From Anaerolineae bacterium (GTDB lineage: Bacteria > Chloroflexota > Anaerolineae > Anaerolineales > UBA11579): DNA of 64,000 nucleotides. The notes beneath the pieces are model-generated. The model had not been told where the DNA came from and made no database searches. It saw only the letters and a program-made list of their open reading frames with translations. This document shows positions 4,770-45,809 of the stretch, piece after piece. Both the position numbers and the translations under genes were made by a program. The stretch spans positions 1-64,000 of the forward strand of contig SCUK01000077.1 in assembly GCA_004297445.1 (NCBI GenBank). Reading direction: 5' to 3'. Position 1 is the stretch's first letter, and each line of letters begins with the position of its first letter.

Positions 4770-5971
4770 GCCAGCACCTCGCGTTTGCGTTTGGGATTGA
4801 AGAAGGAACTCTTGACCACGCATGCCCGGGCCTGCTGGCGGGAAAACTCGACGGTGGTTTCGAGGTGGACGTCATCGCCGAAGGCGGCGTATTGAGTCTT
4901 GAGCGTGGCAAGTGCGATGTATTTCTTGAGGAGGGGGGAGAAGGTGATGCTGGTGGCCTGGCCGACCTGATAGCCGTCCTTGTAGACCGGGACGGCGGCG
5001 CGGGAGGCCATGCCGAGCACTTTGGGGGGCAGGTTGTGGGTGGCGAAGAGGCTTTCGAGGTGCGGCCAGTCAATTTCCAGGCCGCAGAAGAACCATTCGC
5101 TGCCGTGTTTGAGTTCGCGCTGAAGGGCGGGTTTGCCGATGAAGTCCGCGCCGTCCAGGTCCACGGCCCAGCTGAGGCCAATTTCGTAGGGGGTGGATTT
5201 TTGGGATTCGATGTCGGCCTTGGTGGCGGCGATGTAGTCCACGTCGATGAGCAGGAGGCCGGCTTCGATGCGCAGCATGTCCAGCGCGACGAGACCGAGG
5301 GGCATGAGGCCATATTTTCGGCCGGTATCGTAGAGTGAGTCGTAGACTTTTTCGGCGTAACGGCGCTCGACCCAGATTTCGTAGCCGAGGTCGCCGGTGT
5401 AGCCGGTGCGGGTGATGGTGACGGGGATGCGGTCGATCTTTGCCGGGGTGAGGTAATAGTATTTGAGGGCATCCAGCGAATCGTCGGATTGGGTGACGAT
5501 CTGTTTAAGGATTTCGCGGGACTTGGGGCCTTGCAGGGCGAGCGCGCCCAGGTCGGCGGAGAGGTCACGGATTTGTGCATTGAGGCCGTAGCCGACATCC
5601 TGAAACCAGCGCAGGGAGGGGTCAGCGGCGGTGATGCGGAAGTGCTGGGGCCCGAATCGCTGGATGGTGCCATCGTCGATGGTCTGACCGTCCTCGTCAC
5701 ACCAGGGGGAGTACATGACCTGACCGACGGCGCACTTGGCGATGTCGCGGGTCATGATGCGGTCGACGAGGCGGGCGGCATCCGGCCCGGTGATTTCGTA
5801 TTTGAAGAGGGGGGAGACATCCAGAAGGCCGGCGCCGGAACGAACGGCGTAGTATTCGGCGTCATGGGTGGCGGCATAGCGGGCAACGGAAAGATAGCCG
5901 GACCAGTCGCGCCACTCGTGGCTGACGCTGAGCGCCGCGGTGCGGCTGTGGAACGGGGTGGGAATGGGCAT
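4766..5971 (-). CDS. GcvT-family aminomethyltransferase / folate-dependent demethylase-like protein
   Basis: VRSGAGLLDVSPLFKYEITGPDAARLVDRIMTRD and TRTGYTGDLGYEIW motifs; GAGGAGGGCGCATG ribosome binding site. Confidence 0.85.
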   Translation of the reverse strand: MPIPTPFHSRTAALSVSHEWRDWSGYLSVARYAATHDAEYYAVRSGAGLLDVSPLFKYEITGPDAARLVDRIMTRDIAKCAVGQVMYSPWCDEDGQTIDDGTIQRFGPQHFRITAADPSLRWFQDVGYGLNAQIRDLSADLGALALQGPKSREILKQIVTQSDDSLDALKYYYLTPAKIDRIPVTITRTGYTGDLGYEIWVERRYAEKVYDSLYDTGRKYGLMPLGLVALDMLRIEAGLLLIDVDYIAATKADIESQKSTPYEIGLSWAVDLDGADFIGKPALQRELKHGSEWFFCGLEIDWPHLESLFATHNLPPKVLGMASRAAVPVYKDGYQVGQATSITFSPLLKKYIALATLKTQYAAFGDDVHLETTVEFSRQQARACVVKSSFFNPKRKREVLA

Positions 5972-38951: not shown

Positions 38952-39131
38952 CTTGAAGGGGCAAATCTCTATTCAGTATAGGGGCAGTGTGGGATGTGTC
39001 AAGATGCGGGGGAAGAATAGCACTTATCAAATCGGTTGGGTGAGCCCGATCAGGAAATCAAAAGCTGAAGGCAAGAGGTGGCTCACGTTTGGACGACAAA
39101 GGGCCTTGAAATAGAACAGCCTGTGTAAAGA

Positions 39132-39171
39132 AAACAAGGTCAGACTCTGGATACAGTTTCTGACCTTGTTT
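39132..39171 (-). terminator. Intrinsic terminator downstream of tatA
   Basis: AAACAAGGTCAGA-N14-TCTGACCTTGTTT. Confidence 0.75.
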
Positions 39172-39200
39172 GTATGCGGGGAGAGAGATACCGAGCCGAC

Positions 39201-39613: not shown

Positions 39614-40795
39614 TCAGGCGGCGAATTCCGGGCGGGCGAGTTCGGCAGGCAGGTGGGCGATATCGATCTCGGCATCTTCACAATAGAGGAGTGCGTGCTC
39701 AATGGCATGTTTCAACTCGCGAATGTTGCCCGGCCAGTCGTAGGCAATCAATCGCTCCAGAGCGGCGGGAGTCACACCCTCTACGCTTGTACCTTTGCGG
39801 GGGTTCATCTCCTGCAGGAAAAAGCCAACCAGGCCGGGGATGTCCTGTTTGCGCTCGCGCAGGTCCGGTAGATGCAGATCAACGACCTTGAGGCGATAGT
39901 ACAAATCGTCGCGGAAGGTGCCGGCGGCAATCATTTTCTTGAGGTCACGGTTACTGGCGGCAAGGACGTGGACATCGACCTGAATTTCCTGGGTGCCGCC
40001 CATGCGGCGGAAGGTGTGGTCTTCCAGAGCGCGGAGGACCTTGGCCTGCATTTCCAACGGCATCGAAGATATTTCATCCAGGAACAGGACGCCACCATCG
40101 GCAACTTCCATGAGGCCAGCCTTGCGTTTGTCCGCGCCGGTGAACGCGCCCGCCTCATAGCCGAACAATTCCGACTCAAGGACAGTGCTTTGAATGGCGG
40201 CACAATTAATGGCGACAAAAGCTTCGCCGGAGCGGGGTCCCATGCGGTGAATGGCACGGGCGAGAATCTCTTTTCCGGTGCCGGTTTCGCCAGTGATGAG
40301 GACGGAGACTGACATTTTGGCGGCGCGCTGGGCTTTGTGCATGACCTCCGCCATCTGGGGACTATCGCCGATGACGAAGTTAAACTGGTCTATCTGGCTC
40401 TGCCGCAGATGGTGGAGTTCGCGGCGCATGCGGACAGTTTCGCCGGCACGAGCGATGACCTGGCCCAATCGGGTGAGGTCGATGGGTTTGCTGAAGAAGT
40501 AGTGCGCGCCGGCATCCATCGCTTCGACAGCCATGGGAACATCCGCATGGCCGGTGATGAGGATGATCGGCGGGCGGTTAATCATGTGGGCGGTTTCCTC
40601 GAGCAAACTAGGGCCGTGACCGTCCGGCAGGCGGGCGTCCAGCAAGACGACATCGGCGGCGGCGGAGTTGAGGACCTGGCGGGCCTCGGCGAGTGTGCCA
40701 GCTTGCAGTGGGGTGTAGCCCTGCTTTTCGAGAAACTTGCAGATGGTCTTGCGGAAATTCTCTTCATCATCAACAATCAATACGGTCAGACTCAT
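39614..40795 (-). CDS. NtrC-family sigma-54 response regulator lacking a C-terminal HTH
   Basis: Receiver [16 protein letters not shown]+ [49 protein letters not shown]; ends [43 protein letters not shown]-stop. Confidence 0.93.
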
Positions 40796-40807: not shown

Positions 40808-42766
40808 TCAGAGTGGTTTGTTTTCATGGCGGATAGGGAGTTTGATCTTGAAGAGCGTACCTCCTGGAAACGATTCGAGATCAATGCGCCCATTGTGGGC
40901 ATTGACAATTTGCTGGGTAATGGCGAGACCGAGGCCGGTGCCGCGCAATTTGGTGGTGATGAACGGCGCGAAGACCTTGTCGGCCATATCCTGCGGGATG
41001 CCGGGGCCGGTATCGGACACATCAATGCCAACGAGGTTTTCTTCGCCGGGCTGGTCGCACGGACCGACGCGGATGCCGATAATGCCACCGGGGGCACTCA
41101 TCGCTTCCAACGCATTGCCGATGAGGTTGGTAAAAACCTGTTCGAAGGCGATGCGGTCTGCGGTGATGCTGTATTCCGTCTCAGGCATATGGAGGCGAAT
41201 CTCTGCGCCGGTGCGTGCGGCGCGCGAGCGCCAGCGCGGGACGAGCGCCTGCAGAAAGTGATTGAGTTCGAGGGCGTCCATCTGGTAGTTGCGCGAACCG
41301 GCAAATGACAACACCGAACGCATCAATTGTTCCAACCTTTCGCAATCGCCCTGCATGCGCTGGATTTCTTCCTGTAGCGCATCTTGCGGCGAGAGGGTCA
41401 TGCTGATGAGTTGGAGGGCTGAACTGATGTTGTTAATGGGGTTGCGAATCTCATGGGCGAGAACGGCGGTCAGCTCCCCGAGCTGGGCCTGCTGTTCCAG
41501 TTGCTGGGTGCGGCGGTCGAATTGCTCTTCGCGAGAGAGGTCGGTGACGACGATGGCGAGGCGCTGAATGGCCTGACCCATGAGGTAGGGTTTCAGACGG
41601 AGGTGAACGAGGATGGTCTGACCGTCGCGGCGGGTAAGGCGCAGGTTACCCAGGTCGCGCGGCGCGGGGTTGGCGAGAATCTCCTGAATTTCGGAGAGGA
41701 TGGGGCGAGAGGTAATGAGGATATCGGTCAACGGATGGCCATGGACCTCGTCCTGACCATAGCCGAGCAACGCTTCCGCCTTGGCGTTCAGATCGGTGAC
41801 GACGAGGGCGGGGGTGACAAACAGGAGGGCATCATTGACGACATCCTGAATGGACTCGGTCTGGCTCATGGTCTGCATCTGGCGCTGGAGTTTGGATTCG
41901 AGAACTCGCACGGTGCGCGTGTGACGTTCTGTGACTCCAATGGTAGAGGCCAGCAACTCCAGCATAGACTCGAAATGGTCGGGAGGGTCTCCAATCTGGT
42001 CAGCAACCACGAGGATGCCATCGTAGGCGGCCTGGGGGTCCAGCGGTGTAGAGGCGAGGTAGGCGAAGTCCTGAGTCTGGGCGCAGCGGTGGAGTTCTGA
42101 AAACGGCCTTGCCCCGGGCTGCCAGGTGTAGGTGACGCGGAGGTTTTCGGCTTCGTTGAGAGGCAGTTCGTCCGGGAGGCTTTCGGCAAGTCCCCAAATG
42201 TACTTGCGGCAAAGACGCTGGTGGTCAGAGTCAATCTGATAGAAAGCTAGGGTGGTGGCGCCGGTGAGCAACTGGCCGGCCTGAAGCGCCTGAAGGATGG
42301 CGGCGCGCAGGTCCGGCTGGCGCGGCACACCGGCGAGGACGGGTAGGGCCTGGAACCGCTGGGCGAGCATTTCGTCTTCCAGCGAAGAGCCGCGATGGGG
42401 CTGAAGGAGGAAAACGGCGAAGTCGCTCTCGGAGCCGAGGTGATGGGCAGAGACCTCGATGCGGGCCGGGCGGCCGGAGCCGGCGCGCAAGGGTGTATGC
42501 CAGGATGTCTTGTTGGCCGAAAAGCTTTTGGCCAACGCCTGCGGGGTGAGCTCAATCAGAATTTCGTTGAGCGGCCGACCGGATAACTGGCCGACGGAGA
42601 AATGGGTGAGGCTATGGGCGGCGGCATTGCCGAGGTGAATCTGGTGGGTGCGCAGGTCCACGAGCAGCGCGGCGGACGGAAGGAGATCAAACAGGAATGC
42701 CCACTCGGCGCGGCCGGGGGAACGTTTGAAAATAGCGGTGAGGTCGGGCAGGCTTCCGGTTCGCAT
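40808..42766 (-). CDS. Cytosolic NtrB-like PAS sensor histidine kinase
   Basis: No TM segment; PAS regions; [56 protein letters not shown]; 4-nt gap after rpoN. Confidence 0.9.
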   Translation of the reverse strand: MRTGSLPDLTAIFKRSPGRAEWAFLFDLLPSAALLVDLRTHQIHLGNAAAHSLTHFSVGQLSGRPLNEILIELTPQALAKSFSANKTSWHTPLRAGSGRPARIEVSAHHLGSESDFAVFLLQPHRGSSLEDEMLAQRFQALPVLAGVPRQPDLRAAILQALQAGQLLTGATTLAFYQIDSDHQRLCRKYIWGLAESLPDELPLNEAENLRVTYTWQPGARPFSELHRCAQTQDFAYLASTPLDPQAAYDGILVVADQIGDPPDHFESMLELLASTIGVTERHTRTVRVLESKLQRQMQTMSQTESIQDVVNDALLFVTPALVVTDLNAKAEALLGYGQDEVHGHPLTDILITSRPILSEIQEILANPAPRDLGNLRLTRRDGQTILVHLRLKPYLMGQAIQRLAIVVTDLSREEQFDRRTQQLEQQAQLGELTAVLAHEIRNPINNISSALQLISMTLSPQDALQEEIQRMQGDCERLEQLMRSVLSFAGSRNYQMDALELNHFLQALVPRWRSRAARTGAEIRLHMPETEYSITADRIAFEQVFTNLIGNALEAMSAPGGIIGIRVGPCDQPGEENLVGIDVSDTGPGIPQDMADKVFAPFITTKLRGTGLGLAITQQIVNAHNGRIDLESFPGGTLFKIKLPIRHENKPL

Positions 42767-42770
42767 GGGG

Positions 42771-44177
42771 TCAGCCGCGCTGGTGGGCGGGAAGAATCTT
42801 TTCCATTGAGCGGTATTTGGCGACGGTGCGGCGGGCGACTTCAAAACCTTGTTCGGAGAGCAGTTTGGCGAGCTTGGCGTCGCTGAGAGGCTTGTCTTCG
42901 TTTTCAATCAGGCCGCGCAGTACGGTGCGGACGTTGAGGCTGCGGTCGAAGAAGCGGGAAATTGGGATAATCTGGCCGTGAGGCAGCTGGATGGACTTGC
43001 CCTGAACGGCGCGGGAAATGGTGGATTCGTGCAGGCCCAGTTCCTCGGCAAGGCTGGCGCGGGTGAGGGGAAGCATCTGGGTGGCGCCGTGGAGGATGAA
43101 CTCGCGCTGATGGACGGCGAGACGGCCCATGAGGCGGACGAGGGTGTGATTGCGCTGGCTGAGGCACTTGACGAGGAGAGTAGCGCGCTCAATCATCGAG
43201 TCCCACTCCTCGGCTTTCTCCGGCGGGGCCAGTTTGGCGGCGGCGATAATCTCCGGGTTGACGCGCAGGGTGCCGCGCAATGGCCAGACGATTTCCACCT
43301 GAAGGCGGGGCTCGCCGGCTTCGGCAATGCAGGAGACGATGACATCCGGCTGGGAATAGCGCTGAAGGGACTGGCCGGCCGGTTGGCGGGTGGTGCCCCA
43401 ATTGGCGCGGGCGGGGTAGGGATTGAGGTTGTTGGTGATGAACTTGATGATTCTGCGGGCCTTGGGCAGGGTGACGCCCAGTTGTTTGGCGAGCCGGTCG
43501 GCGTGGTTACGAGTGAGGAGGGTAAGCGGTTCCTGGATGGCGCGGAAGATGTCCGGGTCGATGGCGCGGGACTCGGAGAGAAATTCGAGTTGAACGCGGA
43601 GGGCATCCTGATGGGTGGAAGACCCGACGCCCAGAGGCTCGCAGCGCTGGATGGCGCGCTGGATGGTTTCGGCGCGGGAAAGCGTGACGCGGCGGAACTG
43701 GGCAATCTCGACGAGAGGCACGGGGAGCAGACCGTCTTCGTCCAGACTGGTGAGAATCATCGTGACGACGGGGAAGTCTTCCTCATCGAGTTCAGTGGTC
43801 AGCTGGCGGCCGACAAAGGTGGCGAGGTCTTCAATCTCGGGTGAGTAATCTTCCGCAGGGGTGTAATCCTCGCGCGAGGAGGGACCAGGGTTGAAGTCTG
43901 AGGCGTTGGAGACAAAGACAACCGGCTCGTTGGGCGACAGACCGCGGGCGAATGAGCAGGTGGGGCAGATGCGCGGGCCATCGAGGCGGCGGCCACAGTT
44001 GGGACAGCGCCGTTCGTCCACGAGTTCCAGGGCGGGGTTCTGGGCAATCTCCCCGCCGACGCGTTCGTGCATCTCCTGACGGTTCAGTTCCAGCAGGGAC
44101 ATGGTCTGCGCCAGATGCGCGGTAACTACCTGACGCTGGCTCAGCCTCTGGTGTTGCTGGTGGGTATGGGATACCAT
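42771..44177 (-). CDS. rpoN: RNA polymerase sigma-54 factor with zinc-ribbon-like insertion
   Basis: Gln-rich N-terminus, IAQNPALE, LGLHESTISRAVQGKSIQLPHG, RpoN box ARRTVAKYRS; CPNCGRRLDGPRICPTC after region I. Confidence 0.93.
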   Translation of the reverse strand: MVSHTHQQHQRLSQRQVVTAHLAQTMSLLELNRQEMHERVGGEIAQNPALELVDERRCPNCGRRLDGPRICPTCSFARGLSPNEPVVFVSNASDFNPGPSSREDYTPAEDYSPEIEDLATFVGRQLTTELDEEDFPVVTMILTSLDEDGLLPVPLVEIAQFRRVTLSRAETIQRAIQRCEPLGVGSSTHQDALRVQLEFLSESRAIDPDIFRAIQEPLTLLTRNHADRLAKQLGVTLPKARRIIKFITNNLNPYPARANWGTTRQPAGQSLQRYSQPDVIVSCIAEAGEPRLQVEIVWPLRGTLRVNPEIIAAAKLAPPEKAEEWDSMIERATLLVKCLSQRNHTLVRLMGRLAVHQREFILHGATQMLPLTRASLAEELGLHESTISRAVQGKSIQLPHGQIIPISRFFDRSLNVRTVLRGLIENEDKPLSDAKLAKLLSEQGFEVARRTVAKYRSMEKILPAHQRG

Positions 44178-44266
44178 TTCGCCTCTCCTTGATTATAGTC
44201 TGCAAGTGGCCGAATCCAAGTGGGTCGATTGGGCTACCCAGGGGTCAGGTTTCGGTATCCAACCTA

Positions 44267-44283
44267 TTGCAAGGAATGTGCCA
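44267..44283 (-). promoter_or_regulatory. Sigma-54 (-24/-12) promoter upstream of rpoN
   Basis: Minus strand TGGCAC-ATTCC-TTGCAA; canonical GG-N10-GC spacing. Confidence 0.75.
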
Positions 44284-44287
44284 AGGA

Positions 44288-44304
44288 TGGCCGAATCCTT
44301 GCAA
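44288..44304 (+). promoter_or_regulatory. Sigma-54-like (-24/-12) element toward trmFO
   Basis: TGGCCG-AATCC-TTGCAA; inverted-repeat partner (14/17) of 44267-44283. Confidence 0.5.
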
Positions 44305-44447
44305 CAGGGGGCGAGCGGGTAGAATGTGATAACTGCAGGTGAACAGTAATTCGTAATGGGTAATTGGGGATGAGGTAGATTGGTATGCCAAAATGGTTTG
44401 CAAGAGTGAAAATAACTGAGAAATCGTGGAAGCGAGAGCGTTGACGA

Positions 44448-45809
44448 ATGGGCGAAGTTAATCTGACGGTGATTGGCGGGGGGCTGGCGGGAAGCGAGGC
44501 GGCGTGGCAGGCGGCAGAACGCGGACTGAAGGTTCGGCTCTATGAAATGCGGCCCAACGTGAAGACCGGGGCGCACGAAAGCAACTACCTGGCAGAGCTG
44601 GTGTGCTCGAACTCGCTGGGGTCGGACCTGCCAGACCGGGCCGGTGGGCTATTGAAAAACGAACTGCGGCGGCTGAATTGCCTGTTGCTGCGGCTGGCGG
44701 GAGAAACGGCTGTGCCGGCTGGCGGGGCGCTGGCAGTGGACCGCGAGGCGTTTGCCAGGCGAGTCTCGGAAGTAATTGAAGCGCACCCGAATATAGACGT
44801 GGTGAGGGAAGAGGTGCGAGATATTCCGGCCGGGCTGACGGTAGTGGCTTCCGGGCCGCTGACGAGCGCTACGCTTTCTGAATCGATCCGGGCGCTGAGT
44901 GGCGAGGAACACCTGTATTTCTTTGACGCCATCGCGCCGATTGTTGAGGCCGAGTCGATTGACATGTCGGTGGCGTTTCGAGCGTCGCGGTATGAGCGGG
45001 GCGACCAGGAGGACGGTGACTACGTTAACTGCCCGATGACGGAGGAAGAGTATCGGGCGTTCGTTGGCGCACTGCGAGCGGCCGAGCGAATTGAATTGAA
45101 GAGTTTTGAAGAGGTCATAGAACACGAAGGTGTAAAGGCGGGTGCACACACGTTTTTTGAAGGCTGCCTGCCGGTGGAAATCATTGCGCAACGCGGGGAG
45201 GATTCGCTGGCGTTTGGGCCGTTGCGGCCAGTGGGGCTGATCGACCCGCGGACGGGGCGGCGACCGTTTGCGGTGGTGCAATTGCGGCAGGATAACCTGG
45301 CGGGGACGATGTATAACCTGGTGGGCTTCCAGACCAACCTGACATTCACGGAGCAACGACGGGTGTTGAAGATGATTCCGGGGCTGGGCGCGGCACGATT
45401 CCTGCGGTACGGCCAAATGCACCGCAATACGTTCATCTATGCACCCAAACTATTGCGAGCGACGCTGCAATGGCACGACCGGGATGATTTGCTGTTCGCC
45501 GGACAAATCACGGGGATTGAGGGCTATGTGGGGAACATAGCCAGCGGGTTGCTGGCGGGTTGGAACGCGGCACGCGTGTGGAGGGGAGAGAAACCGGTGA
45601 CCCTGCCGCCCACGACTATGCTGGGGGCATTGTGCCACTATGTGACGCATGCGGCAGAGGCCGACTTCCAGCCGATGAAGGCCAATTTTGGCGTGATGCC
45701 GGAACTGACGGGGAAGAAAGTCAAAGGCAAGCGGGAACGGGCCAAAGCTTATGCGGAGCGGGCGCTGGCGGACCTGGACCGGATGCTGGAGAGCGTGGCG
45801 CTGGCATGA
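44448..45809 (+). CDS. trmFO: Methylenetetrahydrofolate-tRNA-(uracil-5-)-methyltransferase
   Basis: [64 protein letters not shown]. Confidence 0.95.

Follow-up and report, generated by a model that had tools for sequence, protein, structure and literature searches.

A conserved sigma-54 site upstream of rpoN in Anaerolineales is probably nested between two sigma-70 promoters and may serve autoregulation

Sigma-54 RNA polymerase forms a closed complex on its promoters and needs an AAA+ activator to open the DNA. To our knowledge, almost nothing has been tested of how the level of sigma-54 is set outside the Proteobacteria. In the window, as we call the whole 64-kb stretch of DNA analysed here, positions 44267 to 44304 between the divergent genes rpoN (minus strand) and trmFO (plus strand) read TTGCAAGGAATGTGCCA-AGGA-TGGCCGAATCCTTGCAA. 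The initial annotation took this 38-base near-palindrome for two back-to-back sigma-54 promoters, on which two holoenzymes would compete or cooperate, and the question is therefore whether it serves both genes, one of them or neither. The sequence was confirmed letter for letter, and a recount of the arms gave the same 14 identities in 17 positions around the same 4-base spacer. The identities of the flanking genes were likewise upheld, RpoN carrying the AID, core-binding and DNA-binding domains and TrmFO matching Pfam GIDA (Table 1). TTGCAA is its own reverse complement, so that any good -12 element already brings some of the symmetry with it, and the window holds inverted repeats of equal quality at roughly six separate locations. 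A strong inverted repeat, AACAAGGTCAGACTCTGGATACAGTTTCTGACCTTGTT, at window positions 39131-39172 downstream of the activator gene, is probably a terminator or an RNA hairpin.

Table 1. Features of the rpoN-trmFO locus, in window coordinates
Feature	Position	Strand	Basis or remark
Response regulator, sigma-54 AAA+, no DNA-binding domain	39614-40795	-	Pfam Response_reg, Sigma54_activat, AAA_lid_14; no HTH
PAS histidine kinase, operon gene 2	40808-42907	-	Pfam PAS, HisKA, HATPase_c
rpoN, sigma-54 factor, 468 aa	42771-44177	-	Pfam AID, CBD, DBD; invariant ARRTVAKYR box
Cys4 motif CPNCGRRLDGPRICPTC in RpoN, residues 58-74, between AID and core-binding domain	43956-44006	-	conservation
TATAAT, putative sigma-70 -10 of rpoN	44192-44197	-	86 bases from the sigma-54 -24 T
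Third partial copy TGGCCGAATCC, exact 11-mer repeat, without -12 element	44207-44217	+	sequence
Predicted sigma-54 -24/-12 promoter of rpoN, TGGCACATTCCTTGCAA	44283-44267	-	consensus match and conservation; predicted start 44257
trmFO-facing arm TGGCCGAATCCTTGCAA, weak sigma-54-like match, species-specific	44288-44304	+	predicted start 44314
TAGAAT, putative sigma-70 -10 of trmFO	44320-44325	+	counterpart of TGNTARAAT; TG absent here
trmFO (GidA family)	44448-45809	+	Pfam GIDA; divergent from rpoN

The arm that faces rpoN is a near-perfect sigma-54 consensus: TGGCACATTCCTTGCA agrees with TGGCAY-N5-TTGCW, with GG and GC 10 bp apart, and its predicted start would give a leader of 80 nt up to the rpoN ATG at 44177. 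The genome was scanned for the motif, as had been suggested, by pattern searches of the 3.2-Mb draft assembly, and six exact TGGCAC-N5-TTGCA sites were found against none for the reversed control. Conservation was followed in 93 rpoN upstream regions from 92 genomes of 14 families, taken as the order Anaerolineales (Chloroflexota), a site being called when it scored at least 18.5 of 22 against the textbook sigma-54 consensus and lay at most 250 bases from the rpoN start. TGGCAC-N5-TTGCA or a close match was present in 90 of the 93 regions, and one of the three regions without a site is a contig end. Divergent trmFO is the neighbour of rpoN in 55 of the 93, and all 55 keep the rpoN-facing site. 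At a score of 19.5 or more, one of 70 rpoN loci from other phyla had a site, which argues that the conservation belongs to the Anaerolineales group and not to the scoring. The relatives are not independent of each other, although the register of the overlap with sigma-70 elements differs between families. Among named Anaerolineae loci, searched with an alignment as query, seven sites scored an exact 22/22 or 20.5 and above, mostly with TATAMT at +21 to +34. The promoter that had been proposed towards rpoN is thus supported, and conservation of this arm also speaks for the proposed autoregulation of the rpoN-kinase-activator operon by sigma-54. We consider it fairly likely that the rpoN-facing arm is a real and ancient sigma-54 promoter, a judgement made jointly with the whole explanation set out below. 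The three genomes of family f9 whose upstream sequence is complete (L097, L098, L101) each have three sigma-54 sites in tandem before rpoN, at intervals of about 26 and 55 bases.

The operon encodes, after rpoN, a kinase, whose true start probably lies inside the listed ORF, and a response regulator of the sigma-54 activator type. The latter ends just past the AAA+ lid, and this short C-terminus is common to the activators of the approximately 25 relatives examined. No other protein of the genome matches the sigma-54 activator family in full; two weak matches, at 36 and 30 bits, fall in open frames of about 845 residues and probably represent AAA+ proteins of another kind. The surveyed relatives mostly have one activator, nearly always within about 5 kb of rpoN and on the same strand, and in family f11 both rpoN and the activator are absent from all genomes. 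Having no DNA-binding domain, the activator is unable to work from its own enhancer site, and the finding that no upstream palindrome is conserved in the group fits such an activator. Helicobacter FlgR is a sigma-54 activator that likewise has no DNA-binding domain. Chlamydia CtcC is another (PMC7482065). The window's activator resembles both in joining a receiver to a sigma-54 AAA+ domain without HTH and in being the single activator of its genome, or nearly so; it differs in belonging to another phylum and in sharing an operon with rpoN under the rpoN sigma-54 promoter. It would act on sigma-54 polymerase without an enhancer site. Several families have a gene for a small membrane protein with two helices, which either comes after the activator or is preceded by its own sigma-54 site (L150, L155, L129). 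RpoN itself carries a CxxC-x9-CxxC motif that was found in 38 of 38 Anaerolineae sequences examined and in none of 72 from other phyla. The motif resembles a zinc knuckle placed within region II of sigma-54, and no description of it was found in a literature search.

A second kind of element, missed by the initial annotation, accompanies the sigma-54 site. An exact TATAAT or TATACT lies 16-75 bases past the site in 67 of the 90 regions (shuffles: mean 3.2, maximum 7), and the corresponding -35 is usually 17 bp from that -10 and coincides with the sigma-54 -12 (TTGCAA) or -24 (TTGGCA) element. In families f1, f8 and f13 (31 genomes) the -10 is at offset 34 and the -12 TTGCAA is the -35 hexamer at 17 bp; in f14 (7 genomes) it is at offset 22 and a TTGGCA overlapping the -24 is the -35, again at 17 bp. 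A -35/-10 pair spaced by 16-18 bp and overlapping the -24/-12 was thus found in all four. Family f5 has the -10 at 44-45 with TTGCGC or a similar -35 at 16-18 bp, and the -10 lies further downstream in f5, f2, f10 and f3. Among 31 other exact sigma-54 sites that were sampled, five had TATAMT, and three of these five are themselves rpoN promoters (L144, L163, L167). Towards trmFO, the extended -10 TGNTARAAT occurs within 60 bases of the sigma-54 site in 29 of the 55 regions (shuffles: mean 0.2). The conservation of these two motifs indicates a conserved design in which the sigma-54 site lies between two divergent sigma-70 promoters. As judged from these motifs, rpoN would typically be driven by interlocked sigma-54 and sigma-70 promoters.

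The layout in the window differs from that of its congeners. G001 and G002 have a compact form with the sigma-54 site 54-55 bases before the rpoN ATG, whereas the window has about 52 extra bases between the sigma-54 -12 and TATAAT and shows no sigma-54/sigma-70 overlap; the rpoN-trmFO intergenic region measures 270 bp here against approximately 100 in the congeners. The window's ACTATAATCAAGGA aligns exactly with the congeners' TATAAT, which in those genomes is 17 bp from the sigma-54 -12 TTGCA region. The -35 of this rpoN promoter is poor in the window (TTGGAT at 16 bp), and a standard promoter scan of the region gave no full sigma-70 match. On the other side, TAGAAT at 44320 is likely the trmFO -10. 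A dispersed repeat was considered for the expanded segment and rejected, as no further copy was found in the genome. The third partial copy of the arm that had been described is present, but it is not a sigma-54-type promoter, since it has no -12 element; it falls within the spacer and -35 region of rpoN's sigma-70-like TATAAT.

The best explanation, which we consider rather likely as a whole, is a sigma-54 site placed between two sigma-70 promoters and an autoregulation that is switched by the activator; the elements, their spacing, the operon and the activator come from sequence and conservation, and we infer from them the binding, the sign of control and the phosphorylation. In most relatives, the predicted sigma-54 and sigma-70 elements of rpoN would physically overlap. 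On such compact promoters, idle sigma-54 polymerase, which binds but cannot open the DNA alone, would exclude the housekeeping polymerase and hold rpoN down. The kinase would phosphorylate the activator of the operon, and the latter, having no DNA-binding domain, would act without an enhancer site and fire the sigma-54 complex, so that rpoN, kinase and activator would all be raised in a positive feedback. Because the approximately 52 extra bases part the two rpoN promoters in the window, repression would be weaker there, and the sigma-54 site would be more an added upstream promoter giving positive feedback than a direct block. The sign of the autoregulation is not readable from the sequence. 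If the interlock works in this way, it would be a minimal conserved switch made of one sigma factor, one kinase and one DNA-binding-free activator, with sign-changing feedback from a single site, and it would predict directly where transcription starts and what the removal of rpoN does. The rpoN gene of the Anaerolineales would then lend itself to studying the control of sigma-54 levels outside the Proteobacteria. More tentatively, a single stretch of about 17 bases before rpoN might be both the sigma-54 promoter and the sigma-70 -35; sigma-54 would then repress its own gene as long as its sole activator, which has no DNA-binding domain, is off, and the feedback would change sign with the signal. 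This would amount to a self-contained switch built on a zinc-motif sigma-54 whose regulon is very small and takes in a second FtsZ-like protein, a possibility to which we give clearly less credence.

It is very unlikely that the near-palindrome carries two back-to-back sigma-54 promoters, for rpoN and trmFO, on which holoenzymes compete or cooperate. GG-N10-GC is kept on both strands, but the trmFO-facing -24 is TGGCCG and not TGGCAC, the AC being changed. This arm scores 18.5/22 on the consensus (shuffle P 0.005), and DNA sampled from this genome contains matches as good at approximately 0.15 per kb per strand. At that density the intergenic region should hold about 0.04 such matches and a tight back-to-back placement 0.003, a post-hoc figure that makes the spacing improbable by density alone and so favours the pair. 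When the conservation of both arms was followed, the rpoN-facing arm proved conserved but the trmFO-facing arm did not: a genuine back-to-back site was found in this genome only, of the 55 with the same gene pair. A degenerate CGGCGCAGAATATGCA is found at a comparable position in the congener G001, possibly a remnant of the arm, which counts for the pair, but no trmFO-facing site was found in G002 or in essentially all of the other relatives. Matches that were the rpoN site read in reverse (gap -17) or that shared the self-complementary TTGCAA (gap -28) were discounted, and in G043, G100 and G093 partial matches on the opposite strand overlap the rpoN site, an arrangement differing from that of the window. 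What faces trmFO among the relatives is instead the conserved sigma-70 extended -10. Moreover, as the -24 elements are 4 bp apart, two holoenzymes would collide and have no space to bind simultaneously. Held against the refuting conditions set out with the proposal, a loss of conservation in the arms or starts from sigma-70 elements, the palindrome fell, and the rpoN-facing arm taken singly stood. Neither the trmFO promoter nor the meeting of two holoenzymes on one palindrome could therefore be maintained, and paired promoters were rejected as a general feature; the palindrome, if functional, would matter for one species only. We find it quite probable that the second arm is a by-product of a short inverted duplication or of drift, either functionless or at most supplying, with its TTGCAA, a poor -35 for the TAGAAT at 44320. 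The enlargement of the intergenic region in this species, the 11-base copy at 44207 and the order of TTGCAA-N15-TAGAAT, which is correct for a weak sigma-70 promoter, agree with such an origin, whereas 15 bp is a short spacing for such a promoter, the enlarged segment is single-copy and one genome of the species is available for comparison. The arm would then probably be a recent change in this species and not a promoter.

An intergenic dyad of 14/17 positions might also be the operator of a dimeric regulator, or an RNA hairpin or terminator. This seems hardly credible, as the dyad is not conserved, the predicted transcripts begin outside it and, with regard to an operator, the only clear sigma-54 activator has no DNA-binding domain. 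A standard scan found neither a T run nor a terminator-like site at the palindrome, and a terminator or hairpin was rejected on these grounds. Doubtful, although far from negligible, is a purely positive feedback through the sigma-54 site, in which the sigma-70 overlap would be compact design and entail no repression. Such feedback would suffice to explain the conservation of the -24/-12, and the more distant -10 of the window and of f5, f2, f10 and f3 is in line with it. However, three different registers of bases shared between the sigma-54 site and the -35 are hard to reconcile with no interaction, and competition at overlaps of this kind is documented in E. coli (PMC4551910). A nested sigma-54 site with activator-switched autoregulation is therefore the reading that we retain.

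Several known systems resemble parts of this arrangement. Autoregulation of rpoN via its own sigma-54 promoter is reported in many classes (PMC12316311), a -24/-12 element before rpoN implying autoregulation there as here; the relevant passages of that work name no Chloroflexota, and in the present case the element is found almost throughout an order, with sigma-70 promoters interlocking on either side. By competing for binding, sigma-54 polymerase of E. coli can repress sigma-70 promoters that overlap its own (by 10-60% in vitro), and at argT, chaC, mdfA and patA a -24/-12 overlaps a -35/-10, so that competition would repress (PMC4551910). The E. coli targets are other genes, whereas here the target would be rpoN itself, a proposal backed by conservation rather than by experiment. 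Neisseria pilE has overlapping sigma-70 and sigma-N promoters, and sigma-N can hinder the sigma-70 promoter (PMC6755734), but this is again another gene, without autoregulation. Negative autoregulation of rpoN in Rhizobium leguminosarum, as cited in PMC3538637, is similar in that sigma-54 lowers its own expression, the likeness concerning the sign of control alone. The combination, conserved through a Chloroflexota order with a shifting overlap register, was not found described in a partial literature search. As far as that literature goes, rpoN autoregulation, overlapping promoters and DNA-binding-free activators are known parts, and their predicted combination in Anaerolineales appears to be new.

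Two of the six exact sigma-54 sites of the genome lie 48-62 bases before a gene for a second FtsZ-like protein (Pfam Tubulin, FtsZ_C) and the gene preceding it (L004:1501-2769 and L003:1501-3002, on G000 contig C28, with sites at 5641 and 7109; also L157 and L165). Both site sequences recur in the congener G001, and the orthologues in G008 and G015 also have sigma-54 sites. A sigma-54 site also stands 32-35 bases upstream of the start of a 349-aa protein that matches no Pfam family (L002:1501-2582; L159), both here and in G011.
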